A stretch of DNA of 64,000 nucleotides from Pantoea sp. CCBC3-3-1 (GTDB lineage Bacteria; Pseudomonadota; Gammaproteobacteria; Enterobacterales; Enterobacteriaceae). The notes beneath the pieces are model-generated. The model saw only the letters and a program-made list of their open reading frames with translations. It made no database searches and had not been told where the DNA came from. Both the position numbers and the translations under genes were made by a program. This document shows, piece after piece, positions 6,207-39,836 of the stretch. The stretch covers positions 3,038,001 through 3,102,000 of the forward strand of contig NZ_CP034363.1 in NCBI RefSeq assembly GCF_007981265.1, read 5' to 3'. Position 1 is the stretch's first letter; each line of letters opens with the position of its first letter.

Positions 6207-6214
6207 TTCGAGAA

Positions 6215-6733: not shown

Positions 6734-7867
6734 GTGGAAATTTACTGGTATCTGACCGCGCCAGACGGTCATCAACCCTGGGCCGCCTCCGGCAGCCGGC
6801 AGGTCAACTACGCCTATTTCCAGCAGGTCGCCCGCGCGGTAGATCATCTGGGTTTTACCGGCGCGCTGCTGGCGACCGGTGCACATGATCCCTGGATTCT
6901 GGGGGCGTCACTTATTCCCTATACCGAACGCATGAAATTCCTGATTGCTATCCAGCCGGGTCTGATCTCACCCACCCTGCTTGCCAAAATGGCCGTGACG
7001 TTTAACCAGTTTTCGAAAGGCCGGGTGCTGCTCAACGTGGTCAGCGGTGATAAAAATACGCTGGGCGCTTACGGCATGCACCTGGATCATGATGCCCGAT
7101 ATGATCTCAGTGACGAATTTTTGCAGGTGTTACGTCCCCTGCTTAATGAAGAAAATGTCAGCTTCAAAGGGGAACACCTGGATATTGAGAACGCCAGGCT
7201 GGCATTGAGCAATGGCGGATATCCCCCGCCACCGCTGTGGTTTGGTGGCTCCTCTGAAGCGGCACAGGAAGTCGCGGCAAAGCACATCGACACCTATCTC
7301 TCCTGGGGGGAAACACCGCCGCAGGCCGCAGAGAAAATCGCCCAGGTGAGAGCCAGAGCCGATAAACACCATCGCCAGTTACGCTACGGCATTCGTCTTT
7401 ATGTGATCGTGCGTGAAACCGATGAGCTTGCGTGGCAGGCGGTAGACGCGCTTTATGCCTCGATGGACGACAGCGCCATTGCCGCCCGGCAGCACCTGGC
7501 CCGCGGTTCAGACTCCGTAGGCCAGTCCCGTATGAGTGCTCTGCACAATGACCAGAAACCCGCCGATCCGCGCGAGCTGGAGATCTACCCCGGACTGTGG
7601 GCGGGCATTGGCCTGGTGCGTCCCGGACCTGGCACCGCTATCGTCGGCAGTCCGGAAACGGTAGAACGCACCCTGCGAGCCTATCAGCAGGCGGGGGTTG
7701 AGGTGTTTATCCTGTCCGGTTTCCCCTTACTGGAGGAAGCCTATCGCTTTAGCGAACTGGTGATGCCACGACTGTCACTCACCCCGCCGGATGACGCGGC
7801 AAAGAATACCTTTACCTGGGGAAATCTGTGGGATCGTCCGGTCGGAAGTGGAGATCCAGCGCAATGA
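6734..7867 (+). CDS. LLM-class flavin monooxygenase, alkanesulfonate monooxygenase (SsuD)-like
   Basis: 377 residues of the bacterial luciferase-like family, subgroup SsuD. Shared signatures include the N-terminal strand VEIYWYLTAPDG, SPTLLAKMAVTFNQFSKGR, PPPPLWFGGSSEAAQEVAAK, IRLYVIVRETDELAW, ARGSDSVGQSRMSALHN, YPGLWAGIGLVRPGPGTAIVG and ILSGFPLLEEAYRF. Such enzymes use FMNH2 and O2 to split C-S bonds of sulfonates, releasing sulfite and an aldehyde. I chose GTG 6734, which aligns with the SsuD N-terminus; TTG at 6701 and 6722 are alternatives. First gene of an operon; its stop overlaps the next start (ATGA). No FMN reductase gene lies nearby, so a host reductase must supply FMNH2. Substrate unknown. 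Confidence 0.85.
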   Translation: MEIYWYLTAPDGHQPWAASGSRQVNYAYFQQVARAVDHLGFTGALLATGAHDPWILGASLIPYTERMKFLIAIQPGLISPTLLAKMAVTFNQFSKGRVLLNVVSGDKNTLGAYGMHLDHDARYDLSDEFLQVLRPLLNEENVSFKGEHLDIENARLALSNGGYPPPPLWFGGSSEAAQEVAAKHIDTYLSWGETPPQAAEKIAQVRARADKHHRQLRYGIRLYVIVRETDELAWQAVDALYASMDDSAIAARQHLARGSDSVGQSRMSALHNDQKPADPRELEIYPGLWAGIGLVRPGPGTAIVGSPETVERTLRAYQQAGVEVFILSGFPLLEEAYRFSELVMPRLSLTPPDDAAKNTFTWGNLWDRPVGSGDPAQ

Positions 7868-8718
7868 AAATCCGTCTGGGAAGCCATCCCAGTAATCTCT
7901 CGCTGTTTATTCTGCGCCATCGCGGTGTCATCGAACCTGCCGCCAGAGACCGGGGCTGGCAGCTGGAATGGTTCGACTATACCCAGGGCGCACGCAGCGG
8001 CGAGTGGCTGGTTGATGAACAGGTCGATGTGGTTGGCACCGGATCAACCCCGCCAATAAGTGCGCAGGCCACCGGGCTGGACGTCGCTTATCTCGCCAGC
8101 TCGCCGCCTCGTAATAACAACTGCGCGTTGCTGACATTGCAAAGCAACGCTATCTCCTCGCTGCGTGGTAAGCGACTGACGGGCATGCCCGGTTCTTTCA
8201 CCGATCATTTTCTGGCGCGTCTGCTGCAAAAACAGAACCTGCGCCGCACCGATGTCACCCTGCTGGACCTGCAGGGGCAGGATGCCATGACTGCCTTACT
8301 CAATGGCGACATTGATGGCTGGCTGGCAATCGATCCCTGGCTGACTCGGGCGTTACAGATAAAGGATGTCGTTGCGCGCTCCGCCGTCGGCGATGAAATC
8401 ATTAACCGTTCACTGTTCTGGACGCGTGCCGCCTGGCAGCAACGCTACCCCGAAGTCGCCGCCTGGATCGTGAAACAGTTGCGCGTAAATGATGCCTGGA
8501 TTGAGCAGCATCCGGTAGCCGCCGCGCAGATTCTTGCCGACAAGCTCAACCCGGCCATCCTGCCTGATGAGTGGCTGAAAACAATACGCGGGCGTCCCTG
8601 GGGTATCACCCCTGCCAGTGACGCTCTGTTAGCCGAACAGCAGCAGCAGGCTGACGATCTTTTTGCCGTGGGTTTCATCCCGATGGCTTTATCCCTGAAC
8701 GCCAGGAGACAGATATGA
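7864..8718 (+). CDS. Leaderless SsuA/NMT1-like protein (cytoplasmic binding-protein fold)
   Basis: 284 residues with the fold of sulfonate/nitrate binding proteins (IRLGSHPSNLSLFILRHRGVIEPAARDRG; VDVVGTGSTPPISAQATGLDVAYLA; SSLRGKRLTGMPGSFTDHFL; IDGWLAIDPW). There is no signal peptide or lipobox: the reading frame starts directly with the first beta strand, and the ATG overlaps the stop of the monooxygenase (ATGA), so no room for a leader exists. It is therefore probably cytoplasmic. DszB, a cytoplasmic desulfinase that works after flavin monooxygenases, has this fold too, but its catalytic Cys27 position is His here. Alternatives: a relic transporter subunit or a substrate carrier for the monooxygenase. 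Confidence 0.75.
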   Translation: MKIRLGSHPSNLSLFILRHRGVIEPAARDRGWQLEWFDYTQGARSGEWLVDEQVDVVGTGSTPPISAQATGLDVAYLASSPPRNNNCALLTLQSNAISSLRGKRLTGMPGSFTDHFLARLLQKQNLRRTDVTLLDLQGQDAMTALLNGDIDGWLAIDPWLTRALQIKDVVARSAVGDEIINRSLFWTRAAWQQRYPEVAAWIVKQLRVNDAWIEQHPVAAAQILADKLNPAILPDEWLKTIRGRPWGITPASDALLAEQQQQADDLFAVGFIPMALSLNARRQI

Positions 8719-9665
8719 CCCGCTGGATACCCCGTACCGCTGTTGCTGCACTGATACTGTGTGCCGGGATGGCAATGGCGACTGAACCGCTCACGCTGCG
8801 CATTGGTTTTCTGCGTGGCCCCACGGACTTAGCGCTGGCTAAAGAGAAAGGAACGCTGGAAAAAGCGCTGGCCGCGCATCAGGTGAACGTCGTCTGGTCG
8901 GGCCCGTTTGCGGCTGCCGCCCCTGCTTATGAAGCGTTAAATGCCGGTTCAATTGACATGACCACCGGCAGCTCCACAGCGTTTGTTACCGCCATCGCTG
9001 CGGGTTTGCCGTTGCGTTTTTTTGCTTATCAGGCCATGCCCGCCGAAGGTGAAGGGATTGTGGTACGCAATAGCAGTGATATCCATTCATTGCAGGATCT
9101 GCGCGGCAAAAAGGTGGCGGTGAATAAAGGCGGGACCGGCGAGTATCTGCTCTCACGCGCGCTGGATCGTGCCGGGATTCCGGAGCAGGAGGTGACCAAA
9201 GTTTATCTCAGCCCTTCCGACACCGGTACGGCATTTGTGGGGGGACATGTCGATGCCTGGGCGACATGGGACCCCTTCCTCTCTCTGGCCAGACAGAGTT
9301 ATGACGCCCGCCAGCTGAGTACGGGTCAGCAGATTGGTTCGGAAAATGCAGCAGGTTATTTCGTCAGCGAGGCGTTTTATCAGGCGCACCCCCAAGTGCT
9401 TAACTGGGTTTATGACGTATTGCAGCAAGAGAACCACTGGGCCAAAGCCCATCCGCTTGAGGCAGGTAAGATCTGGGCTTCACAAATGGGGCAGCAGGGA
9501 AACACACTGGCGGCACTGCTGGGCAAGGTCAACACCGTTCCCATCACGCCGGTCGATGACGCCGCGATAACCCATATCGGGCATATAGCCGACTGGTATA
9601 AGCAACAGGGTCTGATTGTCAGCCATCCAGATATTCGCCAGCATGTCGTCACGCTGACGCCTTAA
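8715..9665 (+). CDS. Periplasmic aliphatic sulfonate-type binding protein (SsuA-like)
   Basis: 316 residues: signal peptide (residues 1-22, cleavage after GMAMA), then an SsuA-family fold (LRIGFLRGPTDLALAKEKGTLEKAL; AALNAGSIDMTTGSSTAFVTAIAAGLPLR-type region; LQDLRGKKVAVNKGGTGEYLL; GHVDAWATWDPFLSLA). Its ATG overlaps the previous stop (ATGA), so it is translationally coupled to the leaderless homologue. No SsuB/SsuC partners are in this operon; the ATPase/permease pairs at 16970-18485 or 21842-23345, or host SsuBC, could serve it. Confidence 0.88.
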   Translation: MTRWIPRTAVAALILCAGMAMATEPLTLRIGFLRGPTDLALAKEKGTLEKALAAHQVNVVWSGPFAAAAPAYEALNAGSIDMTTGSSTAFVTAIAAGLPLRFFAYQAMPAEGEGIVVRNSSDIHSLQDLRGKKVAVNKGGTGEYLLSRALDRAGIPEQEVTKVYLSPSDTGTAFVGGHVDAWATWDPFLSLARQSYDARQLSTGQQIGSENAAGYFVSEAFYQAHPQVLNWVYDVLQQENHWAKAHPLEAGKIWASQMGQQGNTLAALLGKVNTVPITPVDDAAITHIGHIADWYKQQGLIVSHPDIRQHVVTLTP

Positions 9666-9688
9666 AGCCCCGTTATGAGTGAAACAGA

Positions 9689-10738: not shown

Positions 10739-10904
10739 AATCCACAATGAAAGTCAGCGGCAAATGTCCTTTCCGCGGCATTCCGGCTTAACGCGTTAAA
10801 AATAGCACGGACGTCCGGATTCGTAACCGCTCTTTTTATTGTGCCGTAACGTTGATCTGAGTCGCATTCTTGTAATAAAGAAAATTATTTCCAAGCTTAT
10901 CCAT

Positions 10905-10931
10905 AAATAACATAAGGACATTTCGTTATTT
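10905..10931. promoter_or_regulatory. Dyad AAATAAC-N13-GTTATTT upstream of the SBP5 gene
   Basis: Perfect 7-bp inverted arms with a 13-bp spacer, about 95 bp upstream of the peptide-type binding protein. It has the same arm sequence as the dyad at 6681-6697, suggesting a shared regulator. Confidence 0.4.
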
Positions 10932-11026: not shown

Positions 11027-12715
11027 TTGGTCAGTTTAATAAGCAAACAAAGCATGCAGTTCAGACTTAAAATAGCACTCTTCAGCAGTCTGGCAGCTTT
11101 CAGCGCCATGACGTTTGCCGACGATGTCCTAAAAGAGGGTATCACCCCGGCCACCGATTCCAGCCAGATTCCGGCAGCGGCGAAATTGCGCAAAGACACG
11201 GTGGTCGCGGGCATTTCTGAACCTCAGGGGATTTTTAACCCTTACTTTTTTGTCAACGGCTGGGATGAAAATGTCACCAACGTCATTTTTTCACGCCTGA
11301 TTGACTGGGACAGCCACGGCAATCTGGTGCCGGGTCTGGCGGAAAGCTGGTCGGTAAGCCCGGATAACAACGTCTATACCATTAAGCTACGCCCCGATCT
11401 GACGTTCAGCGACGGCTCCCCACTCACCGCCAAAGACGTCGCCTTTACCCTTACCGTCCTGTACGACCCGAAATATGATGGTGACACCGACATCACCCTC
11501 GCGAATATTGCCGGGGGCGCGGAATATAAAGCAGGTAAAGCCGACAGCGTCAGTGGCCTGAAAGTCATCGATCCCCTCACGCTCCAGATCACCACCACAC
11601 AACCCGGCGCAACCACACTGGCAAAAATTGGCGGGCCGGTGCTGTCGGAAGCTTATTACGGCAAAGGCTATCAGCGTGGCAATCTTGACTATCTGCGCAC
11701 ACTGCATGGCAAACCGCTGGGCAATGGCCCCTATGTCTATGACAAATACATCCCCGGGCAGGAAATTCGTTTTCATGCCAATAGCCACTTTTATCGTGGC
11801 ACACCGCCAACGCCTCGTTTTATTTATCGCGTCACTAACCCCTCAACCAATTTCCAGTTGTTCCAGACCGGTGAAACGGATTACGACGCCTTTACTTCAC
11901 GACCGGATGATATTGAACAGCTGAAACTGCTCGGCTTTGCCAATATCAACCTCTACGGGTCCAGTGATTACAGTAAAGTCGAGTTCAACGTTCGCCGCCC
12001 GGCGTTGCAGGACGCGAAGGTGCGTCAGGCGCTGATTTATGGGCTGGATCGTCAGAAGCTAATTGATGTGGTGTACCAGGGGTATGGCAAGGTTGCTATC
12101 GAACCTATCGCGCCCATCTCCTGGGCATATAACCCGGACGGCGTGAATCCCTACAAATACGATCCGGCACAGGCGAAAAAATTGCTTGATGAGGCGGGCT
12201 GGAAACCCGGTTCCGATGGTATTCGCGTAAAGGACGGCAAACGTCTTGAACTGACCTTACTGGCAAGCAAAAAAGTGCTGAACGACGCGCTCATCCCGAT
12301 CGCCAAAGAGGACTGGCAACAAATTGGCGTGCTGCTGAAACCCCAGGTGGTGGACTTCAATGCGCTGATGGCCCAGCGCAAAGCGGGCAATTACGACCTG
12401 GCGTCCTTTAGTACCAGCACGTTAAACGATCCGCATGACGGGGTATGGGATTACTACAGCACCGAGGCTAAGGAGTCCGGCTATAACAATCCTCAGGTGG
12501 ATAAGCTGATTAATGAAGGCAATGCAGTGCTGGATGTGGCACAGCGCAAACCGATTTACCACCAGCTGTACAAAGTGCTGGCAGATGACCCACCGGTGAT
12601 CCTGCTCGGCTATCGCCAGATTCTCTCCGCCAGCAGCGCCCGCGTGACCGGCTTTAAACCGGATATCTATAACGGCCTGACCGGCAGTCTGCCGGACGTC
12701 AAAATCGTTAAGTAA
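11027..12715 (+). CDS. Peptide/nickel-type ABC transporter substrate-binding protein (SBP family 5)
   Basis: 562 residues; the signal peptide (KIALFSSLAAFSAMTFA) is followed by the SBP_bac_5 fold: FSRLIDWDSHGNLVPGLAESW, YTIKLRPDLTFSDGSPLTAKDVAFTL, LGNGPYVYDKYIPGQEI, DAKVRQALIYGLDRQKLIDVV, YDPAQAKKLLDEAGW. The proposed start is TTG 11027, supported by GAGGGA 7 nt upstream; ATG 11054 is the alternative and lacks a good ribosome site. First gene of a complete Opp/Dpp-type importer. Family ligands include di/oligopeptides, glutathione and metal chelates; the LLM/sulfonate neighbours suggest a sulfur-containing ligand, which is inference. Confidence 0.9.
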   Translation: MVSLISKQSMQFRLKIALFSSLAAFSAMTFADDVLKEGITPATDSSQIPAAAKLRKDTVVAGISEPQGIFNPYFFVNGWDENVTNVIFSRLIDWDSHGNLVPGLAESWSVSPDNNVYTIKLRPDLTFSDGSPLTAKDVAFTLTVLYDPKYDGDTDITLANIAGGAEYKAGKADSVSGLKVIDPLTLQITTTQPGATTLAKIGGPVLSEAYYGKGYQRGNLDYLRTLHGKPLGNGPYVYDKYIPGQEIRFHANSHFYRGTPPTPRFIYRVTNPSTNFQLFQTGETDYDAFTSRPDDIEQLKLLGFANINLYGSSDYSKVEFNVRRPALQDAKVRQALIYGLDRQKLIDVVYQGYGKVAIEPIAPISWAYNPDGVNPYKYDPAQAKKLLDEAGWKPGSDGIRVKDGKRLELTLLASKKVLNDALIPIAKEDWQQIGVLLKPQVVDFNALMAQRKAGNYDLASFSTSTLNDPHDGVWDYYSTEAKESGYNNPQVDKLINEGNAVLDVAQRKPIYHQLYKVLADDPPVILLGYRQILSASSARVTGFKPDIYNGLTGSLPDVKIVK

Positions 12716-12729
12716 CCTTGCCCACTGTT

Positions 12730-12755
12730 CAGCCGTCGAGACTTCCTGACGGCTG
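12730..12755 (+). terminator. Hairpin between binding protein and permease genes
   Basis: An 8-bp perfect stem (CAGCCGTC / GACGGCTG) with a 10-nt loop and no following T-run. Such hairpins after the binding-protein gene usually stabilise its mRNA and lower expression of the permease genes. Confidence 0.55.
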
Positions 12756-12768
12756 ATATGAGAAGACC

Positions 12769-13728
12769 ATGAGAAATTTTATCCTGAGGCGGCTGCTGAA
12801 CACCCTGCCCATGCTGCTGTTTGCCTCTTTTATCATCTTTATGTTGTTTGCAAAGACACCCGGTGACTTTATTGATGGCAACGTGACGCTGACCGCCGCA
12901 CGCGCGGCTGAGCTGAAGGCGATTTACGGCCTTGATCAGCCGCTGCTCACCCGCTATCTGCACTGGCTCGGCCAGCTGTTACGGGGTGATTTGGGTTTCT
13001 CACTGCAATACCAGATTCCTGTCACTCAGTTGCTCAACCAATACGTCTGGAATTCCTTCCTGCTCGCCAGTGTCGCGCTGGTGTTTTACTGGGGAATTGG
13101 CCTTGCCGCCGGTATTGCGTCGGCAATCAAACCCAACTCGTGGTTCGATCATCTGGTCAGCGTGCTGGTGTTTGCCGCAATGTCTTTTCCAACCTTTTTT
13201 CTCTGCCTGCTGTTAATCAAATGGTTCGCGGTAGATCTGCACTGGTTGCCGGTCGGCGGCATGACCAACACCGGCAGTGATGACAGCGGCTGGGCCTATA
13301 TTGTGCAGGTGGCGGCCCACCTGATGCTGCCGGTGCTGGCACTGGTGATGTTGCAGGCGGGCAGCCTGACGCGCTATTTTCGCGCCAGCATGCTCGACGT
13401 CATCAAAATGGATTTTATCCGCACTGCCCGGGCAAAAGGTTTACGCGAACGCACGGTGATCATGAAACATGCGTTACGCAATGCGCTGCTGCCGATCATT
13501 ACCCTGCTCGGCTTTGAGCTGCCGGGATTGTTCTCGGGTGCCCTCATCACCGAAAAAGTCTTCAACTGGCCGGGTGCAGGACATATCCACATCGATTCGC
13601 TCGCTGCCCGTGACTATCCGGTGCTGATGGGTTTCACGCTGTTTCTGGCGGTATTAACTATCCTCGGCAATCTGCTGGCCGACGTGCTTTACGCGTGGGC
13701 TGACCCGCGTATTCGGGTGAGTTCATGA
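12769..13728 (+). CDS. ABC transporter permease (DppB/OppB-like)
   Basis: 319 residues with six predicted membrane segments. The N-terminus (RNFILRRLLNTLPMLLFASFIIFMLF) and the EAA coupling loop (IRTARAKGLRERTVIMKHALRNALLPI, near residues 222-248) are typical of the OppB/DppB class, and the family end motif YAWADPRIR is present. It pairs with the OppC-like protein whose ATG overlaps this stop codon. Confidence 0.92.
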   Translation: MRNFILRRLLNTLPMLLFASFIIFMLFAKTPGDFIDGNVTLTAARAAELKAIYGLDQPLLTRYLHWLGQLLRGDLGFSLQYQIPVTQLLNQYVWNSFLLASVALVFYWGIGLAAGIASAIKPNSWFDHLVSVLVFAAMSFPTFFLCLLLIKWFAVDLHWLPVGGMTNTGSDDSGWAYIVQVAAHLMLPVLALVMLQAGSLTRYFRASMLDVIKMDFIRTARAKGLRERTVIMKHALRNALLPIITLLGFELPGLFSGALITEKVFNWPGAGHIHIDSLAARDYPVLMGFTLFLAVLTILGNLLADVLYAWADPRIRVSS

Positions 13729-14675
13729 TGATCAGTTCACTTTTTTCCACGCAACGCCGCCTGCGCAAAGCGGTAATACCGGCACTGGCCCAGGCCACGA
13801 CCTCACCGTGGCGTCAGGCATGGCAGGCATTACGGCGCAATCCTCTGGCGATGGTGTGCCTGGTTTTACTGATTGTCATGGCGATCTGGTGCGTGCTGGG
13901 GCCGATCTGGTCGCCGTGGCAGAATGACGCCACGGATGCCCTGATGATCAACAAACCGCCAGGGGTGCAGCACTGGCTGGGAACCGATTTCCTGGGGCGG
14001 GACGTCTACACCCGTTTACTTCTTGCCGGGCGCATTTCGCTGACCATTGGCCTGCTGACGATGTTGCTGTCGGTGGCGCTGGGTTATCTGCTCGGTGCCG
14101 TATCGGGCTACGCGGGTGGCCTGACCGACAAGCTGATTATGCGTCTGGCCGATCTGGTCATGACTATTCCCAGCCTGCCGCTGCTGATTGTCGCCGGCGC
14201 CATGCTGTCGGAGCTCGATTTCTCTGCGGATGCGCGCATCTATATGGTGGTCATCATGCTGAGCCTGCTGGAGTGGCCTAAACTGGCGCGGCTGGTGCGT
14301 GGGCAAATCCTTTCGCTGCGCGAGCGTGATTTTATGCTGGCAACGCAGGTACTGGGGCTGTCATCACGTCGCCGCCTGTTTGGTCATCTGCTGCCCAATA
14401 CCATCCCGATTCTGGTGGTCATGGCGACGATGGCTGTGGCGAACGCCATTCTGAGCGAGTCGGCGCTGAGCTATCTCGGTCTTGGCGTCGTCCCGCCGAC
14501 CCCCTCCTGGGGCAATATGATGGATGCCGCCAATAGCCTGATCGACTTCCAGCGTCGCCCGTGGCTGTGGATGCCACCGGGCATCGCCATCTTTATCACC
14601 GTGGTTGCCATCAACGTACTGGGCGACGGCTTGCGTGATGCGCTCGATCCCCGCATGAAACGGAGCCAGAAATGA
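13725..14675 (+). CDS. ABC transporter permease (DppC/OppC-like)
   Basis: 316 residues with an OppC_N region (WRQAWQALRRNPLAMVCLVLL), the signature HWLGTDFLGRDVYTRLLLAGRISL, a coupling loop (LREREFMLATQVLGLSSRRRLFGHLLPN-like region) and the end DGLRDALDPRMKR. Start ATG 13725 overlaps the stop of the OppB-like gene; the stop overlaps the next ATG (ATGA). Second half of the membrane channel. Confidence 0.92.
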   Translation: MMISSLFSTQRRLRKAVIPALAQATTSPWRQAWQALRRNPLAMVCLVLLIVMAIWCVLGPIWSPWQNDATDALMINKPPGVQHWLGTDFLGRDVYTRLLLAGRISLTIGLLTMLLSVALGYLLGAVSGYAGGLTDKLIMRLADLVMTIPSLPLLIVAGAMLSELDFSADARIYMVVIMLSLLEWPKLARLVRGQILSLRERDFMLATQVLGLSSRRRLFGHLLPNTIPILVVMATMAVANAILSESALSYLGLGVVPPTPSWGNMMDAANSLIDFQRRPWLWMPPGIAIFITVVAINVLGDGLRDALDPRMKRSQK

Positions 14676-15652
14676 GCCAGCCACTGATCACCTTCGAACA
14701 GTTATCCGTCTCCTTTGCCGCCGAACAGGGGCGTGTGCAGGCCGTGCAGGAGGTCTCCTTTACTATTCATGCCGGACAGACCCTGGGTATTGTCGGCGAA
14801 TCCGGCTGTGGCAAAAGCGTTACCGCCATGTCGCTGATGGGACTGTTGCCGCCGCAGGCCGCACGTATTGACGGCGGAGCCATCCGCTTCCAGGGGCAGG
14901 ATCTGCTTACACTCAATCCCGCCAGGATGGCCGACCTGCGAGGCAACCAGCTGGCGATGATTTTTCAGGAACCAATGAGCGCCCTGAATCCGGTGCTGAC
15001 CATTGGCGAGCAGCTATGTGAGCCATTGATTCGCCATCGGGGGGAATCACCTAAAGCCGCCTGGCAGCAGGCGATCGCGCTGATTAGCCGCGTCGGGCTG
15101 GCGCGCGCGGAGAGTCTGATGACCCGCTACCCGCACCAGCTTTCCGGCGGCATGCTGCAACGCATCATGATTGCGATGGCACTCAGCTGCCAGCCGAAAC
15201 TGCTGATTGCCGACGAGCCAACCACCGCGCTGGACGTCACCGTTCAGGCCCAGATTCTGCGTCTGCTGCGCGATCAGGCCCGTGCCAGCCAGATGGCGCT
15301 GATGCTGATCACCCATGATCTGGGCGTCATTGCCCGGATGGCGGAGCAGGTAGTCGTGATGTATGCCGGGCGGGTTGTTGAATACGGCCCCACCGCAGAG
15401 GTACTGCGTAATCCGCTGCATCCCTATACCCAGGGCTTGATCGCCTCCCGACCGGTTCCCGGCGAGCGGCGACGTCGGCTCTACTCCATCCCCGGCCAGG
15501 TGCCGGACCTTGCCGCGCTGCCCGCATTCTGCGCTTTTTTTGACCGCTGCGATCGCGCCAGTGAAATCTGCCGGGCAGGCATACCGCCGCTGGTGGGTAC
15601 AGCGCGGCAGGCCGCCTGTTTTCACCGTGAAAAAGTGGAATCTTTCGCATGA
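14672..15652 (+). CDS. ABC transporter ATP-binding protein (DppD/OppD-like)
   Basis: 326 residues: Walker [10 protein letters not shown] (near residue 45), signature [15 protein letters not shown], Walker [21 protein letters not shown] and the C-terminal oligopeptide domain with a Cys-rich segment ([15 protein letters not shown]) that in OppD/DppD enzymes can hold an iron-sulfur cluster. ATGA overlaps on both sides place it firmly in the operon. Confidence 0.93.
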
Positions 15653-22576: not shown

Positions 22577-22577
22577 A

Positions 22578-23345: not shown

Positions 23346-23371
23346 CTCATTCTTTTCATCAGGGGTATGTC

Positions 23372-24349: not shown

Positions 24350-24364
24350 ACCGGAGTACAACTC

Positions 24365-31040: not shown

Positions 31041-31042
31041 GA

Positions 31043-31834: not shown

Positions 31835-31847
31835 ACCGACTCCTGAA

Positions 31848-32516
31848 TTATTGTTGATAGGGTTTGCCCAGATGGGTTTCCAGTTGCCGCTGCAGTAATG
31901 AGAGCAGGAAGGTCACTCCCCAATAGACCAATGCAACAGCGGTATAAGCTTCGAAGAATTTAAGCGAGGCAGTGGCTTCAAGTTTTCCTGCCGACAGCAA
32001 CTCGGTGACACCGAGTGTAAAAGCCAGTGAGGAGTTTTTAATCAGCCCGATATACATGTTGCCTGTTGCCGGGATCGCATTGCGACAAATTTGCGGAAAC
32101 AAAATGCGCCAGCAAGCAACGGGTAGGCTTAAGCCGCTAGCCAGTGCAGCTTCAATTTGCCCGCGGTCCACTGAATCAATCCCCGCGCGGAATATCTCAG
32201 CCAAATATGCAGCAGTGTTAAAACTCAATCCGGCGATAACCGCGTAAACGGGCCCAACGGAATTCAATACTGGAAATAGTTGTGGCAAACCAAAATAGAT
32301 AATCAGTAATTGAACCAGTACTGGAGTGCCTCTGAAAAAGGAAATATACAGCCGAGCGACACCACGCAGTAGCTTTCCGCCACGCAGCATGAGTGCGAGT
32401 AGCAAACCCAGTAAGGTGGCTACAATGATTGAAGCTCCCGAGATCAGCAAAGTGATTGGCAGATAGCCCAGAATGGCGGGAATCAATTTGAACATATAGA
32501 TCAGGTCAAAATTCAT
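31848..32516 (-). CDS. Polar amino acid ABC transporter permease
   Basis: 222 residues of the HisM/GlnP/TcyL family: SGASIIVATLLGLLLALMLR, YISFFRGTPVLVQLLIIYFG, EIFRAGIDSVDRGQIEAALA, FPQICRNAIPATGNMYIGLIKNSSL (coupling loop; written here in overlapping pieces). It sits 13 bp from the binding protein gene and 16 bp from the ATPase gene. Confidence 0.92.
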   Translation of the reverse strand: MNFDLIYMFKLIPAILGYLPITLLISGASIIVATLLGLLLALMLRGGKLLRGVARLYISFFRGTPVLVQLLIIYFGLPQLFPVLNSVGPVYAVIAGLSFNTAAYLAEIFRAGIDSVDRGQIEAALASGLSLPVACWRILFPQICRNAIPATGNMYIGLIKNSSLAFTLGVTELLSAGKLEATASLKFFEAYTAVALVYWGVTFLLSLLQRQLETHLGKPYQQ

Positions 32517-32532
32517 GGTCTAGTTTCCTGAC

Positions 32533-33285
32533 TTATATTTCGTAGTCGTTTACAAAGGCGTCAATTCGGCTTCCCACATCACCTTGAATGATCTCATCGG
32601 GTGCACCCTGAGCGATGATTCTGCCTTGCTCCATAAAAAAGAGCCGATCTGAAATTTCTCGGGCAAAATTCATTTCATGAGTCACGATAGCCAGGGTGAT
32701 ATTCTGCGTCGCAATTTCGGCAATCAGTTTTAATATGCCGCGGCGCATTTCAGGATCGAGTGAGGAAGTGGGCTCATCCATCAGAATGACTTCAGGTTCC
32801 AGACTGAGCGCACGTGCAATTCCCACCCGCTGCTGTTGCCCTCCCGATAACATCGCCGGATATGATGACGCTTTATCATGCAGCCCGACACGATGGAGAT
32901 ATTCCAGGGCTTTTTCATCCGCTTCCTTGCGACCTAGTTTTTTAGCGAAACGCAGGACCTCAGTAATATTTTCCTGTGCGGTTTTATTTCGAAAAAGATT
33001 GTAATGCTGGAATACCATTGAGTTTTTACTGCGCAGCGTATTGATCTGTTTTCGCTGGACATGCTGTGCATCTATAGATGCGTTACCGATTGAAATCTTC
33101 CCCGAATCGGGCAGGACCAGAAGATTCAACGTACGTAAAAGCGTGGACTTTCCCGAACCTGACGGGCCAATGATGGAAACCACCTCTCGTGGTTGCACAT
33201 CGAAACTGATATTGTCGAGTGCCTGGAAGCCGCGAAACGATTTACTTATCCCTGAGACATTTATCATTGATTTATCGGCATACAT
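32533..33285 (-). CDS. Polar amino acid ABC transporter ATP-binding protein
   Basis: 250 residues: Walker A GPSGSGKSTLL, MVFQHYNLFRNKTAQENI, signature [15 protein letters not shown], Walker B VILMDEPTSSLDPEMRRG. An internal ATG at 33267 (MINVSGISKSF) is an alternative start; neither has a strong ribosome site. It follows the M20 hydrolase gene after 105 bp, which may hold a separate promoter. Confidence 0.92.
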   Translation of the reverse strand: MYADKSMINVSGISKSFRGFQALDNISFDVQPREVVSIIGPSGSGKSTLLRTLNLLVLPDSGKISIGNASIDAQHVQRKQINTLRSKNSMVFQHYNLFRNKTAQENITEVLRFAKKLGRKEADEKALEYLHRVGLHDKASSYPAMLSGGQQQRVGIARALSLEPEVILMDEPTSSLDPEMRRGILKLIAEIATQNITLAIVTHEMNFAREISDRLFFMEQGRIIAQGAPDEIIQGDVGSRIDAFVNDYEI

Positions 33286-33390: not shown

Positions 33391-34629
33391 TTACTCGCTT
33401 TCATTCGCCGCAATGATAATCGTTCGAAAGAGTGTATTAGCCCCTTTCTCTGACCATTCTGGCAAAATAGCTTCTGCCTCGTTGTGGCTAATCCCTTTTA
33501 CACAAGGAATAAAAATAATAGCCGTGGGTGCTACATGTTGAATATAACAAGCATCATGGCCGGCCCCGGAGACCATATTGCTATGACTGAACCCCAAATG
33601 TTCCACCGCCTTTTCAATGCGAGCCACACAACACTGATCAAACTTAATCGGTGCATAATCAAAAATTTTCTCAACGTGAACTGTCAGATGACGATGGGAT
33701 AATGTGTTCAGTGCATCATGCAAACCTGATTCCATGACTTCCAGACTCTTTGATTCAGGATGACGAAACTCAACGGTGAAGAAAACTTCACCCGGTACAA
33801 CGTTACGGGAATTAGGCACCACCCGAGACATGCCAATTGTACCCCGACCATCCTTGCCGCTTTGTTGTGCAATCTTCTCGACAGCCAGCACAATTTCCGC
33901 AAAACCGCACATCGCATCCTGACGTAAATCCATTGGTGTGGTGCCCGCATGCGCGGCAAAACCCTGAAGGGTGACTTCAAACCATCGCTGCCCCATGGCG
34001 GCATGAACAATACCAATATCCGTGCGAGTTTTTTCGAGGATCGGGCCTTGTTCAATATGCAATTCATAGCAGGCATGAAGGTCAATTGGTTGTACTTTGT
34101 GACGACCTTGATAGCCGATCGTTTCCAACGCCTCAGCAACGGAGATACCCGCACTATCCAGGCGGCTCAGTGCAAAGGCCTTAGAGAAGACACCGGCCCA
34201 AACTCCCGAGGCCAACATGGCTGGCGCAAATCGCGCGCCCTCTTCATTGGTCCAGTTAACCAGCAGAATATCGCGCTCGGTTTGGATTTCGTGATCATTG
34301 AGGGTGCGCAACACCTCCAACCCGGCCAGTACGCCATAGACACCATCATAATTGCCTCCCTGCGGTTGTGAATCAGCATGAGAGCAGATCATGACGGGCG
34401 CCAGCCCGGCATTTTTACCGGGGCGTCTGATGAACATGCTACCCAACTCATCAATCTCGCAGGAAAAACCCGCTTCAGCGGCCCAGCGCTTCAGGGTATC
34501 TCGCCCCTGACGGTCTTCTTCACTTAGCGTAAGACGCGTCACACCGCCAGCAGGGGTCGCACCAAAAGTGGCAAAGGTTTCGAGGGATTGCCACAGTCGT
34601 TGCGCGTTGATACGGGCTGTGATACTCAT
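33391..34629 (-). CDS. M20-family Zn hydrolase, N-carbamoyl-L-amino acid hydrolase type (AtcC-like)
   Basis: 412 residues of the allantoate/N-carbamoyl-amino-acid amidohydrolase group. Metal ligands are in ICSHADSQPQGGNYDG (His and Asp), LVNWTNEEGARF (Glu-Glu pair), ELHIEQGPILE (His) and, near the end, SGAGHDA (His). The dimerisation domain contains GFAAHAGTTPMDLRQDA. Its ATG overlaps the stop of the thiazoline hydrolase gene (ATGA). In Pseudomonas the AtcB-AtcC pair converts L-2-amino-thiazoline-4-carboxylate to N-carbamoyl-L-cysteine and then to L-cysteine, CO2 and ammonia; the same pairing here makes this the likely second step. Confidence 0.85.
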   Translation of the reverse strand: MSITARINAQRLWQSLETFATFGATPAGGVTRLTLSEEDRQGRDTLKRWAAEAGFSCEIDELGSMFIRRPGKNAGLAPVMICSHADSQPQGGNYDGVYGVLAGLEVLRTLNDHEIQTERDILLVNWTNEEGARFAPAMLASGVWAGVFSKAFALSRLDSAGISVAEALETIGYQGRHKVQPIDLHACYELHIEQGPILEKTRTDIGIVHAAMGQRWFEVTLQGFAAHAGTTPMDLRQDAMCGFAEIVLAVEKIAQQSGKDGRGTIGMSRVVPNSRNVVPGEVFFTVEFRHPESKSLEVMESGLHDALNTLSHRHLTVHVEKIFDYAPIKFDQCCVARIEKAVEHLGFSHSNMVSGAGHDACYIQHVAPTAIIFIPCVKGISHNEAEAILPEWSEKGANTLFRTIIIAANESE

Positions 34630-35105
34630 GATTTTACCCGATAGCGAAAGTCACAACGCGGCGCACCAGACATCACTGTGGTGGTGCGCGTTAGCTCAAC
34701 TTCAGGTGCATAACCGACAATAAACTTGTCATCCCGCGCACAAGAAAGGAGATGCCCAATCTCGCCTAAGCCCATCTCGTGATACATCTCGGCATAGCGA
34801 CAGCGGGTGACGTCATAGTTATAGCGTTGCCCGTCGTCATCGAGCACTTTAACGTCTAATGCATTGTCTTTTTCCCAGAGATATTGCAGATTGACGAAAC
34901 TTCGCAGATCTGCCTTTTTGGGCTCTTTTTTGGCAAACTCTTGCCCCGCCTGGATAGCCGCGCTTTCAATGGCTTCTCCAATCAGCGCTTGCGCCTGAGC
35001 CTTCCCGAGCTCTCGCACCAGGACGTCATAAATCGGTTTGATAATTTCGGCTTCAATCTTACGCCGGGCAAGAATGCCCAGCTCTTCGTTTTGATGACAA
35101 CTCAT
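34626..35105 (-). CDS. L-2-amino-thiazoline-4-carboxylic acid hydrolase (AtcB-like)
   Basis: 159 residues matching the L-ATC hydrolase family: an N-terminal helix with ARRKIEAEIIKPIYDVLVRE, then YNYDVTRCRYAEMYHEMGLG, LLSCARDDKFIVGYAPEVEL and the end GAPRCDFRYRVKS. The conserved cysteines and the TRCRYAE signature are in place. The enzyme opens the thiazoline ring to give N-carbamoyl-L-cysteine; the M20 protein encoded next would finish the path to L-cysteine. ATC forms chemically from cystine and cyanide, so cyanide-adduct recycling is also conceivable. The gene lies 12 bp after a branched-chain-type binding protein. Confidence 0.82.
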   Translation of the reverse strand: MSCHQNEELGILARRKIEAEIIKPIYDVLVRELGKAQAQALIGEAIESAAIQAGQEFAKKEPKKADLRSFVNLQYLWEKDNALDVKVLDDDGQRYNYDVTRCRYAEMYHEMGLGEIGHLLSCARDDKFIVGYAPEVELTRTTTVMSGAPRCDFRYRVKS

Positions 35106-35117
35106 TATGTTCTCCCG

Positions 35118-36269
35118 TTACTTTGCAGCACCACCCACGACGGTCTGTGGCTGCCATTTACCGTTCACGACTTTGTAAACAGTGAAGGATGGATTTTTGA
35201 GGTTGCCTTGCGCATCAAAGGCGATTTGTCCGCTCACGCCGGCATAATTGATGTTACGCAGTACCGGCAGGTATTGGCTTGCATCCGCAGAATTGGCCTC
35301 TTCAATCGCAGCAATCAACACGCGTGTAGCGTCGTAGGCAAATGGCGCATGCAGTTCAATGTGAGTGTGATAGCGAGACTGGTAAGCTTGCTCAAAGGCT
35401 TTACCACCCGGCATTTGATCTACCGGTAAGCCCGGTTCCAGCGCAACAACACCGTCCCCTTCTTTTTGCGCCAGTGTCAGGAAGGTCTGACTAACAAACC
35501 CACCCGCACCCATTAATGTTGCGTTCATACCAAGCTGTTTAATGCGGCGCGCCAGCGGTGCGGCTTGGCTGTCAACGCCTCCGAAAAACACCAAGTCAGC
35601 ATTTTTGCTACGAATAGCCGTAAGTACTGCACTGAAGTCTACAGTTTTATCGTCCACATACTGGCGGTCAACGATTTTGACGCCCTGCGATTCCAGCGAT
35701 TTGATGAACTCATCCGCCAGCCCTTGGCCAAAAGCAGTGCGATCGTCGATGACTGCAATACGCTTCGCTTTTAGCGTTTTAACTGCATACTGACCTGCAT
35801 AGTTACCGCCATCATCATCATGACCCATGACGCGGAAGCTGGTATCAAAGCCTTGCTGCGTGTAGGCGTGCCCTGTGGCGACCGGAGCCACCTGCGCGAT
35901 GCCAGCATCATGATAAATCCGCGCGGCAGGGATACTGGTTCCTGTATTCCAGTGTCCCACCACCCCGGCCACACCGCTGTCAACTAAGCGCTGTGCAACG
36001 GCAACCGCAACACGTGGATCAGACTGATCATCTTCCGACTGCAATTTGAAGGTCACAGCTTTGCCACCCACGGTCGGGTGCGCTTTATTGGCATCATCGA
36101 TCGCCAGTTGAGCACCGTTCTCCAAATCCTTGCCGATACGCGCTGAAGGTCCCGTGAGTGGGCCCGCCAGACCGATCAGGATGGTTTCGTCAGCATGTAC
36201 AGGCACCGAAGCAGCCATACCCGCCAGAAGCAGTGCAGTGCTGATGGTACTCATTTTGATTGTTTTCAT
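35118..36269 (-). CDS. Branched-chain amino acid-type periplasmic binding protein (LivK-like)
   Basis: 383 residues; signal peptide (STALLLAGMAASVPVHA), then the Peripla_BP_6 fold: ETILIGLAGPLTGPSARIGK, GHWNTGTSIPAARIYHDAGI, KRIAVIDDRTAFGQGLADEF and DLVFFGGVDSQAAPLARRIK. I used ATG 36269 (MKTIKMSTIST), preceded by AGGGA; the longer frame to 36395 runs into the LivF-like gene. It probably binds the amino acid or heterocycle handled by the hydrolases encoded downstream. Confidence 0.9.
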   Translation of the reverse strand: MKTIKMSTISTALLLAGMAASVPVHADETILIGLAGPLTGPSARIGKDLENGAQLAIDDANKAHPTVGGKAVTFKLQSEDDQSDPRVAVAVAQRLVDSGVAGVVGHWNTGTSIPAARIYHDAGIAQVAPVATGHAYTQQGFDTSFRVMGHDDDGGNYAGQYAVKTLKAKRIAVIDDRTAFGQGLADEFIKSLESQGVKIVDRQYVDDKTVDFSAVLTAIRSKNADLVFFGGVDSQAAPLARRIKQLGMNATLMGAGGFVSQTFLTLAQKEGDGVVALEPGLPVDQMPGGKAFEQAYQSRYHTHIELHAPFAYDATRVLIAAIEEANSADASQYLPVLRNINYAGVSGQIAFDAQGNLKNPSFTVYKVVNGKWQPQTVVGGAAK

Positions 36270-36292
36270 AGTGTTCCCTGATGTTGGTGAAG

Positions 36293-37015
36293 TTAAATGG
36301 GCAATTCGCCCAGGTAAATTTGTTGAATACGATCGTCGTTCAGCAACGCATCCGAGCGCCCCTGATAGGGTATGGTTCCACTGTCCATCACCCAAGCGTG
36401 GTCGGTGGCTTGCAGCGCCAGCCGCGCGTTTTGCTCGATCAGCAGTAATGTGATGCCAGTGGTACGCAGAGAGTGAATAACCTCGAAGATGCGCTCCACC
36501 ATGATGGGCGCCAGCCCCATGGAGGGTTCGTCCAGGATGAGTAATTTCGGATTGCTGAGCAGTGCTCGGGCAATCGCTAAAAGCTGCTGTTCCCCACCGG
36601 AAAGCAGCCCAGCCAGCTGCTGTTTTCGTTCAGCAAGGCGAGGAAACTGTTCCATTAGCTGCGCAATGTGGTGGCGAACATGGGTGCGGTCACGGCGGTG
36701 CCAGGCTCCCATTTGCAGATTCTCCAGCACTGTCATGCGCGTAAAAATTCCGCGTCCTTCCGGTACCAGCACAATGCCTTTTTGGACCAACTCATTGGGA
36801 TGCAAACCTTTGATGGATTGCCCCTGCCAGAAAATCTCGCCGGAGTAAGGCTGCAAACCGCAGATAGCGCGTACGGTGGAGCTTTTACCTGCGCCGTTCG
36901 CGCCGATAAGCGTGCCCCGCTCTCCCGGCTGCAAACTTATATTGATGCTTCGTACGGCCTGTATGCCGCCGTAATGCACGCTAAGATCCTTGATCTGTAA
37001 CGCAGGCTCAGACAT
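36293..37015 (-). CDS. Branched-chain-type ABC ATPase (LivF-like)
   Basis: 240 residues: Walker A GANGAGKSST, VPEGRGIFTRMTVLENL (LivF hallmark), signature LSGGEQQLLAIARAL, Walker B LLILDEPSMGLAPIM. ATG 37015 ([10 protein letters not shown]) has GGGAGG at proper distance (8 nt); ATG 37021 is only 2 nt from it. Confidence 0.92.
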   Translation of the reverse strand: MSEPALQIKDLSVHYGGIQAVRSINISLQPGERGTLIGANGAGKSSTVRAICGLQPYSGEIFWQGQSIKGLHPNELVQKGIVLVPEGRGIFTRMTVLENLQMGAWHRRDRTHVRHHIAQLMEQFPRLAERKQQLAGLLSGGEQQLLAIARALLSNPKLLILDEPSMGLAPIMVERIFEVIHSLRTTGITLLLIEQNARLALQATDHAWVMDSGTIPYQGRSDALLNDDRIQQIYLGELPI

Positions 37016-37775
37016 GTGCATGGCCTCCCAGATAAGCTTTGATCACCGCAGGATGGCGACGCACCGTCTCTGGATGGCCAGATGCAATCACTTTGCCGTA
37101 GTCCAGTACCGAGATGTGATCGCACAATCCCATCATCAATTTCACATCGTGCTCAATAATCAGCAGCGTTTTACCATCGTCCCGAATGCGGCGCAGCAAA
37201 CCACCTAGCGCGACTTTTTCTGCCGCATTCATGCCCGCTGCGGGTTCATCCAGCGCCAGCAGTTTGGGATCCGATGCCAACGCCCTGGCGATTTCCAACC
37301 GGCGCTGATGGCCGTAAGCCAGGTCGCAAGCGCGATAGTGGGCAAACTGAGCAATACCGGTGTATTCAAGCCACTGCCATGCCAGTGTTTCGGTCTCACG
37401 CTCTTCAGCACGCGCGCGGCGATGGCGGGAGAGAGCGGCCCACAAACCGTTACGTGTCCGGACATGCCTGCCGATCATCACGTTTTCCAGCACACTCATC
37501 TCGTTGAATAAACGCAGATTCTGAAAAGTACGCGCGATACCCGCTTGCGTGACTTTTTCTATTCTTTGCGGGGTATAGGGTTTTCCCGCAAGGTCAAATT
37601 CGCCACTGTCAGCTCGGTATAACCCGGTGATGAGATTAAAACAGGTGGTTTTGCCAGCACCATTCGGCCCAATTAGCCCATAAATGTCGCCCGCCTTAAC
37701 GTTCAGGCTGACATCATCAACCGCTTTAATACCGCCAAAGTTTTTATGCAAATGACGCACGCTCAGCAGATTCAT
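37008..37775 (-). CDS. Branched-chain-type ABC ATPase (LivG-like)
   Basis: 255 residues: Walker [51 protein letters not shown] (degenerate signature usual in LivG), [19 protein letters not shown] 37775 overlaps the LivM-like stop (ATGA); a longer frame to 37805 lies inside that gene. Confidence 0.92.
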
Positions 37776-38875
37776 GATGCCACCCCCGGATGACGCACCG
37801 GCCAAAGGCCATGCGGCCTGAACAGCATCACCAGTACCAGCGCCAGGCCATAAAACAGCTGACGTAAAATTTCCGGTTCAATGATCACGCTACCAAACAG
37901 TGCCTGCTGCAATGGAATCGCCTGGCTTCTCAGTACTTCGGGCAATGCAGAGAGCAACACTGCACCAAGAATGACGCCCGGCACATGCCCAATTCCGCCC
38001 AAGACCACCATGGCGAGAACCACGATTGACTCGTTCAACGTAAACGACTCCGGTGAGACAAACCCCTGGAAAGACGCGAACATCACCCCGGCTACGCCAC
38101 CGAATGACGCCCCAAGCGCAAATGCCAGCAGCTTGAAGTTACGGACGTTGATACCCATGGCACGCGCCACATCCTCATCTTCACGAATTGCGTGCCAGGC
38201 GCGGCCAATGCGCGAATGTTGCAACCGTAAACAGATAAAGATGATGACCGCGATGAGCAGCGCGAAAAGGTAATACCATAAATAGAGTGCCGGAATTTTT
38301 TGGCCCAGCAGGTGGTAAGTGCCACTGAATTTCAGGCCAAACAGATTCAGGGAATCAATACCTGAAATGCCTTTTGCACCATTCGTGATATTGACCGGAC
38401 GATCGAGGTTACGCATCAAAATACGGATGATTTCACCAAACCCCAGTGTGACGATCGCCAGATAGTCACCACGTAATCCCAGCGTGGGTGCGCCCAGCAG
38501 AATGCCGCAGATACCCGCAACAAAAGCGCCTAACGGCACCAGCCACAAATAGGAGGTATGCATGCCATGGGAGAACATGGGCTGCAAGGCGGGAAAGGCA
38601 TCCAGAAGATGCGGTGACGCCAGAAGCGCCGCGAGATAGGCACCCACGGCATAAAAGGCAATAAACCCCATATCCAGCAGGCCCGTAAAGCCCACAACAA
38701 TATTCAACCCTAATGCCAACATGATGTAGAGCAGAGTAAAATCAATCACCCTGACCCAGTAATTACCACCCGTGGCAGATGCAAGCCAAGGCGCAATGAG
38801 CATGCCCACGATCAGTAATAACAGGCCTGAATTGAGGCGGCGTTTGGGTACATTTTCAAATGAAATAGCGCTCAT
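37772..38875 (-). CDS. Branched-chain-type ABC permease (LivM-like)
   Basis: 367 residues, about nine membrane segments: LGLNIVVGFTGLLDMGFIAF, LRGDYLAIVTLGFGEIIRIL, RAWHAIREDEDVARAMGINV, and FQGFVSPESFTLNESIVVLA. ATG 38875 follows GAGGA at 7 nt; GTG 38893 is an alternative. Confidence 0.92.
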   Translation of the reverse strand: MSAISFENVPKRRLNSGLLLLIVGMLIAPWLASATGGNYWVRVIDFTLLYIMLALGLNIVVGFTGLLDMGFIAFYAVGAYLAALLASPHLLDAFPALQPMFSHGMHTSYLWLVPLGAFVAGICGILLGAPTLGLRGDYLAIVTLGFGEIIRILMRNLDRPVNITNGAKGISGIDSLNLFGLKFSGTYHLLGQKIPALYLWYYLFALLIAVIIFICLRLQHSRIGRAWHAIREDEDVARAMGINVRNFKLLAFALGASFGGVAGVMFASFQGFVSPESFTLNESIVVLAMVVLGGIGHVPGVILGAVLLSALPEVLRSQAIPLQQALFGSVIIEPEILRQLFYGLALVLVMLFRPHGLWPVRHPGVAS

Positions 38876-38885
38876 AGTCTTATCC

Positions 38886-39836
38886 TCAGGCACGCTGTGC
38901 CACGCGTTCGCCTAACAACCCTGCTGGTCGGAACACCAACACCAGAATTAAGACAATGAAAGCAAAAACATCCTGATAATTACTGCCAAAGACGCCATGC
39001 GTTAGCTCTCCCAGATAGCCCGCGCCCAGCGATTCAATAATACCCAGCAGTACTCCGCCCACCATGGCACCACGAATATTGCCAATCCCGCCCAGAACCG
39101 CAGCAGTAAAGGCTTTGATTCCCGGTAAGAATCCCATCGAGAATCCGGCATTGCCGTAGTTACTTGCCATCATGACTCCTGCCAGAGCGGCGAAAACACC
39201 CCCGATGGCAAAGGTCAACGTGATGATGCGGTTTGGGTTGACGCCCATCAGGCTGGCTACGCGAGGGTTTTCAGCAACGGCACGCATACCGCGCCCCAGC
39301 CGAGTAAACTCCACCAGCAACCACAACCCTGCCATGGCGCTCAAGGCCAGCAGGAAGGTGACAATACCGGTAACAGTAATAATGGCAGGGGGATGCTGTG
39401 CATCACCGGCGGTGATCGCTATCGGATCCATCGATAAAACTTGCGGGAACATCAGCGGATTGCGGCTCCAGATGATCATCGCGCAGGTCTGGAGCAGGAC
39501 AGAAAGGCCAATACCACTGATCAACGGTGCCAGGCGCGGAGCATTGCGCAAGCGGCGGTAAGCAAAGCGCTCAATACCCATTGCTAGTAGCGCGCAAACA
39601 CCCATTGACAGCAGAGTGGCAATCGTTAGTACGACCAGTGCATTTAAGTGTGGGAAATGTTGAGTAAGCAACTGCATCCCAGACAGGGTAGTCAGTGCCC
39701 CAGTCATCAAAATGTCGCCGTGTGCAAAATTAATGATGCGCAAAATTCCGTACACCATGGTGTATCCAAGCGCTATCAGGCCATAAATGCTGCCAAGCAT
39801 CAGGCCATTAATCAGTTGTTGTATAAATGTATCCAC
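38886..39836 (-). CDS. Branched-chain-type ABC permease (LivH-like)
   Basis: 316 residues: N-terminus INGLMLGSIYGLIALGYTMV followed by YGILRIINFAHGD, later RAVAENPRVASLMGVNPNRI and KAFTAAVLGGIGNIRGAMVG. First gene of the minus-strand run that may extend to 29742. The promoter must lie in the 160 bp shared with the divergent LysR gene. Confidence 0.92.
   Translation of the reverse strand: MDTFIQQLINGLMLGSIYGLIALGYTMVYGILRIINFAHGDILMTGALTTLSGMQLLTQHFPHLNALVVLTIATLLSMGVCALLAMGIERFAYRRLRNAPRLAPLISGIGLSVLLQTCAMIIWSRNPLMFPQVLSMDPIAITAGDAQHPPAIITVTGIVTFLLALSAMAGLWLLVEFTRLGRGMRAVAENPRVASLMGVNPNRIITLTFAIGGVFAALAGVMMASNYGNAGFSMGFLPGIKAFTAAVLGGIGNIRGAMVGGVLLGIIESLGAGYLGELTHGVFGSNYQDVFAFIVLILVLVFRPAGLLGERVAQRA

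Follow-up and report, generated by a model that had tools for sequence, protein, structure and literature searches.

Does an island of uptake and breakdown genes beside a tRNA gene form one metabolic package or a stack of separate cassettes, and which of its genes are worth following? The island considered here lies in a stretch of 64,000 nucleotides (the window, positions 3038001-3102000) of the 5.0-Mb chromosome of Pantoea sp. CCBC3-3-1, whose genus group of 37 genomes was taken as Erwinia in the GTDB sense, since one of them has a 4278-base locus identical to that of Erwinia oleae DAPP-PG531. Between two copies of the 3′ end of a tRNA-Asn gene 34 genes were counted, arranged as five modules (A to E), an Opp importer and a LysR gene (Table 1). 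The first-pass annotation had read this region as one mobile package for scavenging organic sulfur, close to cbl, the gene of the sulfonate regulator. The part worth following is narrower: the SsuD-like enzyme of module A and its SsuA-like partner that lacks an export leader. This leaderless SsuA-fold family, paired with a distinct clade of SsuD-like enzymes, is what is new here. The reading preferred below, given roughly an even chance, is that the two proteins would work as a cytoplasmic pair releasing sulfite from an imported sulfonate-like compound, encoded in an island that grew by accretion.

A leaderless SsuA-fold protein

The protein encoded at 7864-8718 has the SsuA fold, and its score to the curated SsuA_fam model lies below the cut-off (117.2 vs 163.5 bits). 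No signal peptide is recognisable, as judged by hydropathy and frame limits rather than by a leader predictor: the reading frame in the window opens 12 codons upstream, and all 77 aligned family members begin at the mature fold or within about 15 residues of it. The 77 rows leave out one hit of 171 amino acids and keep one partial protein of 254; the alignment A1 consists of the window protein and 44 of the 78 family hits. In the start-of-fold check the frames of L074 and L076, whose annotated starts lie at or near the fold, were over-extended upstream, as were several authentic frames. A wrong start codon masking a leader was considered and rejected, given the frame limits and the family-wide starts at the fold.

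Three residues, His8, Ser80 and Arg182, are strictly invariant across the 77 leaderless sequences. The invariant His8 takes the place of Gln36 (numbering of Xanthomonas citri SsuA), a residue that contacts the sulfonate according to the X. citri study (PMC3839906). Among four SsuA positions that contact sulfonate two are retained in the leaderless protein, both of them glycines.

The host carries a second leaderless SsuA-like gene, 48% identical, at chromosome positions 2236883-2237740 (L062 8841-9755). It adjoins a TIGR04027-type monooxygenase, an alkylhydroperoxidase-domain protein and an Opp-type importer, and no SsuD-like gene is present there.

Conserved pairing with an SsuD-like gene

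Outside the genus, the SsuD-like gene adjoins the SsuA-like gene in 10 of the 10 loci recovered at the search cut-offs: two in Thioclava (the second placed from coordinates), one each in a Streptomyces, an Agrobacterium (on a Ti plasmid), a Marinibacterium and Rhizobium lusitanum, one on a Terrarubrum plasmid, and three in the genomes G437, G704 and G646. Within the genus the family occurs in 12 of 37 genomes, and a trio of SsuD-like gene, SsuA-like gene and secreted binder is found in 10 of 14 loci. The reverse search, made in the family of G704, found an SsuA-like gene beside every SsuD-like locus (5/5, four of them new). Plasmid records with an SsuD-like protein of at least 70% identity number six; these are identical to the records from the binder search, and so not independent of it, and the next three records reach at most 51% (two annotated ssuD, one unannotated).

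A control was provided by authentic SsuD loci (L023-L046, family search), 23 of 24 of which have a neighbouring binder. These binders score 151 to 171 bits to the leaderless profile and their fold starts at residue 28 or later, whereas the leaderless family scores 302 to 431 bits. The host's own two SsuD loci (L063, L064) have binders at 153 and 179 bits.

Related operons carry further transport genes. In R. lusitanum, G892 and G884 the operon is extended by a secreted SsuA-family protein, an ATPase and a permease; reading frames were the source for the permease and ATPase in R. lusitanum and G884, and for the order of the two in G892. Others have a tripartite ATP-independent periplasmic (TRAP) importer in place of the ATP-binding cassette (ABC) importer. 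Model scans covered the L115 permease, the L115 and L116 binders and the L113 TRAP gene, and the other ATPases and TRAP genes are named by annotation or similarity. Because the complete importers in view each bring their own binder, the leaderless protein is not needed for import. The operon of L113 further holds an MsuE-type flavin mononucleotide (FMN) reductase (226.7 bits vs 212.5), as well as a gene of the ArsR family that scores under the BigR cut-off (82.4 vs 155). Neither a cytoplasmic SsuA with SsuD, nor a signal-less binder with a flavin monooxygenase, nor an island in Erwinia with an alkanesulfonate monooxygenase was found in the open-access literature searched.

Two neighbourhoods of the pair may be recorded separately. 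On the Agrobacterium plasmid pTiQ15_94 (L075 5995-7979) the pair lies a few kb from iaaH and a gene of the octopine/nopaline-dehydrogenase family. In one Thioclava (L073 13947-15539) the pair and a TRAP importer are followed by a gene of the gamma-glutamyltransferase (GGT) family, 37% identical to the island's GGT-family protein, which may point to a functional link between modules A and C.

A separate clade of SsuD-like enzymes

The partnered SsuD-like enzymes form one group of 17 with 100/99 support in a tree of 44 rows, from which L056 was left out for its truncated frame and in which the Streptomyces partner is a long branch. Identity of the island enzyme (6734-7867) is 55-65% with five named alphaproteobacterial partners, 47-50% with the SsuD enzymes of the host itself and 44% with the Streptomyces partner. 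All 17 members retain the sulfonate-binding residues Trp195, Arg225 and Arg296 (MsuD numbering), each of which is required for sulfite release by MsuD, as given in the MsuD study (PMC8234197). All 17 have lost His10 and the Cys of the motif RSCED, His227 has become Tyr in 16 of 17, and Tyr330 is Phe, Met or Asn throughout. That study (PMC8234197) describes the SsuD equivalents of His10 and His227 as tolerant of mutation. Among authentic enzymes His10, the Cys, His227, Ala299 and Tyr330 are kept in 26 of 26, and the first Gly of the sulfonate loop varies in 5 of 26.

Proposed mechanism and its rivals

The SsuA-like partner has no recognisable export leader, so that the pair likely acts inside the cell. 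The class of substrate, the order of the steps and the role of the SsuA-like protein, whether enzyme in the manner of DszB or binder, are proposed as follows. A substrate would enter by way of the secreted binding protein (8715) or Opp. Reduced FMN from a host reductase would let the SsuD-like enzyme attack the carbon adjoining the sulfur. The cytoplasmic SsuA-like protein may then bind a sulfonate, a sulfinate or another intermediate in an oxyanion pocket containing the invariant His, and would finish or assist the step, as DszB does behind DszA. In a stronger form of this proposal, possible but less than probable, the pair would be a two-protein desulfonation system not recognised before, in which a monooxygenase derived from SsuD acts with a cytoplasmic enzyme evolved from a sulfonate binder, the invariant His having replaced the Gln that contacts the substrate; it would parallel DszA/DszB but be independent of it.

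Several observations weigh against the sulfite-releasing pair. The island enzyme falls under both NCBIfam cut-offs for SsuD (434.1 vs 510 and 419.9 vs 518.2), and RPGP replaces the sulfonate loop RGGA in 17 of 17 clade members; together these raise the possibility of a substrate other than a sulfonate. Within the island, no gene was recognised as encoding a flavin reductase. The only Cys of the window's leaderless protein (position 87) lies outside the conserved columns, and the catalytic Cys of DszB has no counterpart. The list of similar structures places the non-enzyme binders TauA, CmpA and NrtA above enzymes, so the fold gives no argument for catalysis. Four of the 14 Erwinia loci (L049, L083, L091, L092) lack an SsuD-like gene within about 1.5 kb, and most of the 78 leaderless-family proteins were not seen in their genomic context. 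The family is also rare and confined to few lineages: it was found in 2 of 295 genomes of the order and 3 of 398 of the phylum, the host included in both, counts that are lower bounds since scoring took in no more than 5 to 8 candidates per genome in the order (for this family, the module D enzyme and the B gene alike) and no more than 6 in the phylum.

It is possible, though short of probable, that the cytoplasmic SsuA-like protein is a binder and not an enzyme, serving to store, deliver or sense what the SsuD-like enzyme consumes or makes. Its nearest sequences and structures are transport binders, in keeping with the two retained contact glycines; the invariance of His8, Ser80 and Arg182 exceeds the needs of loose binding, although it is no proof of catalysis. 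It is unlikely that the SsuD-like clade acts on a substrate without sulfur, such as a carboxylate or phosphonate, which would leave module A unrelated to sulfur. The RPGP loop, the loss of His10, the Cys and Tyr330, and the TRAP importers of several related operons would fit such a substrate; the Trp and two Arg kept in every clade member, the SsuA_fam binders above cut-off in the window, L115 and L116, and the MsuE-type reductase in L113 speak for sulfur. A cytoplasmic pair that would release sulfite is the reading followed here.

The island and its attachment site

The repeat CAGTCAGAGGAGCCAAATT comprises the 3′ end of tRNA-Asn plus adjoining bases, and its direct copies at 6189 and 42226 bound about 36 kb, as expected of a tRNA-targeted island. 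None of the genome's 23 matches to the phage-integrase family PF00589 lies between the repeats. The description of the region as mobile is borne out by its ends, and within them an IS110 remnant is the one mobility gene left.

Two features elsewhere on the chromosome may be added. A further attR-like copy at 3008090-3008153 (L065 5997-6152), 87% identical to window positions 42132-42287, lies about 30 kb upstream of the window and suggests another tRNA-Asn island or remnant. At 2912102-2913516 another tRNA-Asn copy has an integrase gene less than 1 kb downstream, whose product could perhaps act on the attachment ends of the 36-kb island.

Table 1. Features of the island and its ends (window coordinates)
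Feature	Position	Strand	Basis
tRNA-Asn (gtt), integration site	6129..6204	+	ARAGORN, Rfam
attL, tRNA 3′-end repeat CAGTCAGAGGAGCCAAATT	6189..6207	+	sequence repeat
Module A: SsuD-like FMN monooxygenase, separate clade	6734..7867	+	
Module A: leaderless SsuA-fold protein (cytoSsuA), its start overlapping the stop of the monooxygenase gene	7864..8718	+	
Module A: SsuA-family binding protein, hydrophobic leader	8715..9665	+	SsuA_fam 190.7 vs 163.5
Module A: luciferase-like monooxygenase (LLM), subfamily ambiguous by score	9689..10738	+	Pfam Bac_luciferase
Opp4-like oligopeptide-type importer, five genes	11027..16629	+	
Module B: permease, ATPase, Ser-type BAAT/ACOT-family hydrolase (18482-19780), binding protein	16970..20841	-	
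Module C, first part: GntR, ATPase, permease, binding protein, MDR oxidoreductase	21147..29691	+	
Module C, rest: hotdog thioesterase, glyoxalase-like protein, acyl-CoA ligase, GGT-family hydrolase (28069-29691)	21147..29691	+	
Module D: NtaA-family monooxygenase (29742-31040), cystine-type importer	29742..33285	-	
Module E: carbamoylase (33391-34629), ATC hydrolase (34626-35105), Liv-type importer	33391..39836	-	
GcvA-like LysR regulator, travels with module E	39997..40965	+	
IS110-family transposase remnant	41272..41706	+	PF02371
attR, second copy of CAGTCAGAGGAGCCAAATT	42226..42244	+	sequence repeat

The inventory given by the first-pass annotation (three LLM enzymes, SsuA-class binders, SsuBC pairs, importers, hydrolases and a GGT) is present in full. 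The LLM genes are 6734-7867, 9689-10738 and 29742-31040; the second reaches no NCBIfam cut-off, its best model being TIGR04027 (93.3 vs 412.9). Four binding proteins are of the SsuA/NMT1 type, with starts at 7864, 8715, 19777 and 23372, and that at 8715 alone passes SsuA_fam, those at 19777 and 23372 scoring 46.7 and 125. The importers comprise two ATPase/permease pairs of Ssu/Tau type, Opp, a cystine-type and a Liv system, most of them under the curated cut-offs for single transporters. Relatives of the Opp importer at about 81% occur on Pantoea plasmids.

Nearness to cbl is real and belongs to the site. Cbl is the first reading frame of the window, cut by its edge (482.3 bits vs 491, on 241 of 316 positions). 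The gene was found in eight Erwinia genomes, seven of which were opened, and the order cbl, nac, three sugar-ABC genes and tRNA-Asn is kept in 7/7; in none of the seven did the sequence retrieved past the tRNA (2 to 4 kb) contain island genes at more than 45% identity. In Escherichia coli K-12, cbl and nac likewise sit between the tRNA-Asn genes asnU and asnV. Control by Cbl inferred from position was accordingly rejected, because the same gene order stands in these relatives without island genes, and the nearness is uninformative. A megablast search of E. coli genomes with the left flank and window positions 6734-31700 gave no match.

Outside the island, window positions 54413-63812 hold two ABC importers (not identified by the model scans), a 2-oxoglutarate/iron (2OG-Fe) oxygenase, an iron alcohol dehydrogenase and, below cut-off, a molybdenum S/N-oxide reductase of BisC/TorA type. 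Relatives of four genes of this segment lie near cbl in G007 (L129).

One package or accreted modules

The genome G437, from another genus (g146) of the same family, has its own tRNA-Asn and matches window positions 6081-15002 at 96.7% and 15003-16654 at 94.7% DNA identity. There the bases that follow module A and Opp match the attR end (window 42125-42282) at 75%, so that A and Opp (6734-16629) make up a complete island in G437. In other Erwinia genomes the module A trio of SsuD-like protein, SsuA-like protein and secreted binder stands alone.

Modules B and C (16970-29691, 13 genes) likewise travel as a unit, which was sought in named genomes through the BAAT-like gene, in loci of 11 to 21 kb. 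Twelve loci were found: five hold all 13 genes, four hold 11, one holds 11 at a contig end, one has just the four genes of B, and the last breaks off at a contig end. The hosts are Symbiopectobacterium, Biostraticola, Escherichia sp. ESNIH1, Superficieibacter, Corticimicrobacter, Erwinia oleae, three Cupriavidus, a Ralstonia, and metagenome-assembled genomes of a Leclercia and of a member of the Enterobacterales. The cassette is conserved in both beta- and gammaproteobacteria, its genes being ordered differently in Burkholderiales. No match to module A or E is listed in these 12 loci; B+C is flanked by an NtaA-type gene (40-42%) in L017, a Cupriavidus locus, and near some of the loci the module D permease has weak matches (27-46%). 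Three genomes, all of one other genus, carry just module E and its LysR gene (64-87% protein identity), and in G280 the carbamoylase/ATC-hydrolase pair adjoins a cystine-type importer. Relatives of the module D enzyme (E 1e-110) and of the B gene (E 1e-50) were absent from the other 294 of 295 genomes of the order.

Since A+Opp, B+C and E occur apart from one another, the single package proposed by the first-pass annotation fails. Its organosulfur character is plausible, and best founded, for A and E, and is unsupported for B+C, which account for 13 of the 34 genes. The island is likely, and in the simplest reading, an accretion at one tRNA-Asn site of at least three uptake-and-breakdown gene sets that are found singly elsewhere. 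The ends shared with G437 also fit a 25-kb deletion there instead of accretion in the window, a point that tells against this view. An arrival of the whole 36-kb set in one event, with later loss of the middle in G437, would explain the high identity of both ends and is nevertheless quite improbable: B+C and E exist elsewhere as stand-alone units, and no third genome with the whole set appeared in the samples searched. Very doubtful is one co-selected organosulfur package under the neighbouring Cbl, since the sulfur-type enzymes that lie together in A, E and possibly D are set against the separate occurrence of A+Opp, B+C and E, B+C without a recognised sulfur-specific enzyme, the regulators that E (LysR) and C (GntR) bring themselves, and a cbl to tRNA-Asn order that is independent of the island.

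Enzymes of modules B to E

In B+C enzymes of coenzyme A (CoA) esters were recognised, and none specific for sulfur; from this gene content, the unit would take up an acyl or amide compound for activation via CoA. A Cys nucleophile marks the bile-acid-type N-acyltransferases, and this assignment was rejected for 18482-19780, where the motif GxSRGGE has Ser in 15 of 15 aligned sequences, the window's included. The protein of 28069-29691 passes the GGT model (373.7 vs 357.85) and has no leader; among solved structures it is nearest to 2nlz, titled cephalosporin acylase, at 508.7 bits (next 243.1). BAAT-like and GGT-like genes adjoin in Ketogulonicigenium as well.

The module D enzyme (29742-31040) belongs to the NtaA/DmoA family (450 vs 279.7), and its subfamily scores lie within 14 bits of one another: DszA 287.9, YtnJ 283.9 and nitrilotriacetate (NTA) monooxygenase 274.6. 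In module E the carbamoylase (TIGR01879, 409.6 vs 204) adjoins the hydrolase of 2-amino-thiazoline-4-carboxylate (ATC; PF14196, 142.5 bits vs 28.1), the pairing of the L-ATC pathway. Module E would thus turn L-ATC into cysteine, separately from module A. The acid, ATCA, arises from cyanide and cystine according to one report (PMC10575699), and salvage of a cyanide product by module E is possible.

Implications

Where database names are given for the leaderless family, they are ABC transporter or sulfonate substrate-binding proteins, names that would imply the wrong cellular compartment. Should the proposed role hold, a transport binder has been recruited into metabolism beside a monooxygenase, and organosulfur use gains a further route, one whose genes occur in marine and plant-associated bacteria as well as on a Ti plasmid of Agrobacterium. 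The island illustrates how nutrient cassettes can pile up at a single tRNA site, among them B+C as a conserved 13-gene unit for CoA-dependent breakdown, and cautions that a neighbouring regulator, here cbl, does not necessarily control the genes beside it.

Comparison with known systems

Module D resembles the CmoJ/YtnJ salvage of S-alkylcysteines in pairing an NtaA-family monooxygenase with a cystine-type importer. It differs in that the enzyme scores about equally as DszA, and a search confined to the island recognised neither an acetyltransferase nor a CmoO partner. Module E shares with the Pseudomonas pathway from L-ATC to L-cysteine, as set out in its description (PMC10821248), a carbamoylase side by side with a hydrolase of the ATC hydrolase family; unlike that pathway it adds a Liv-type importer and a GcvA-like LysR gene, and no racemase was recognised in the island.

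The DszA/DszB system, in which Cys27 of DszB is catalytic, differs from module A in both partners: the island LLM is SsuD-like rather than NtaA/DszA-like, and the N-terminal loop of the leaderless protein has no Cys. By the aligned ranges of 2de2 and 2de3, the latter titled as the C27S mutant, His8 coincides with DszB position 27 or lies about one residue away.

The closest known relative of module A is the Ssu/Msu alkanesulfonate system. The LLM lineage is shared (50% identity to the host SsuD), Trp195, Arg225 and Arg296 are kept, a secreted SsuA-family binder is encoded in the window, and some related operons have Ssu-type importers. Unlike Ssu/Msu, the island enzyme stands in a separate clade with RPGP instead of RGGA and with changes at the Cys, His10, His227 and Tyr330 positions, and beside it is encoded a second SsuA-fold protein, one without a leader.

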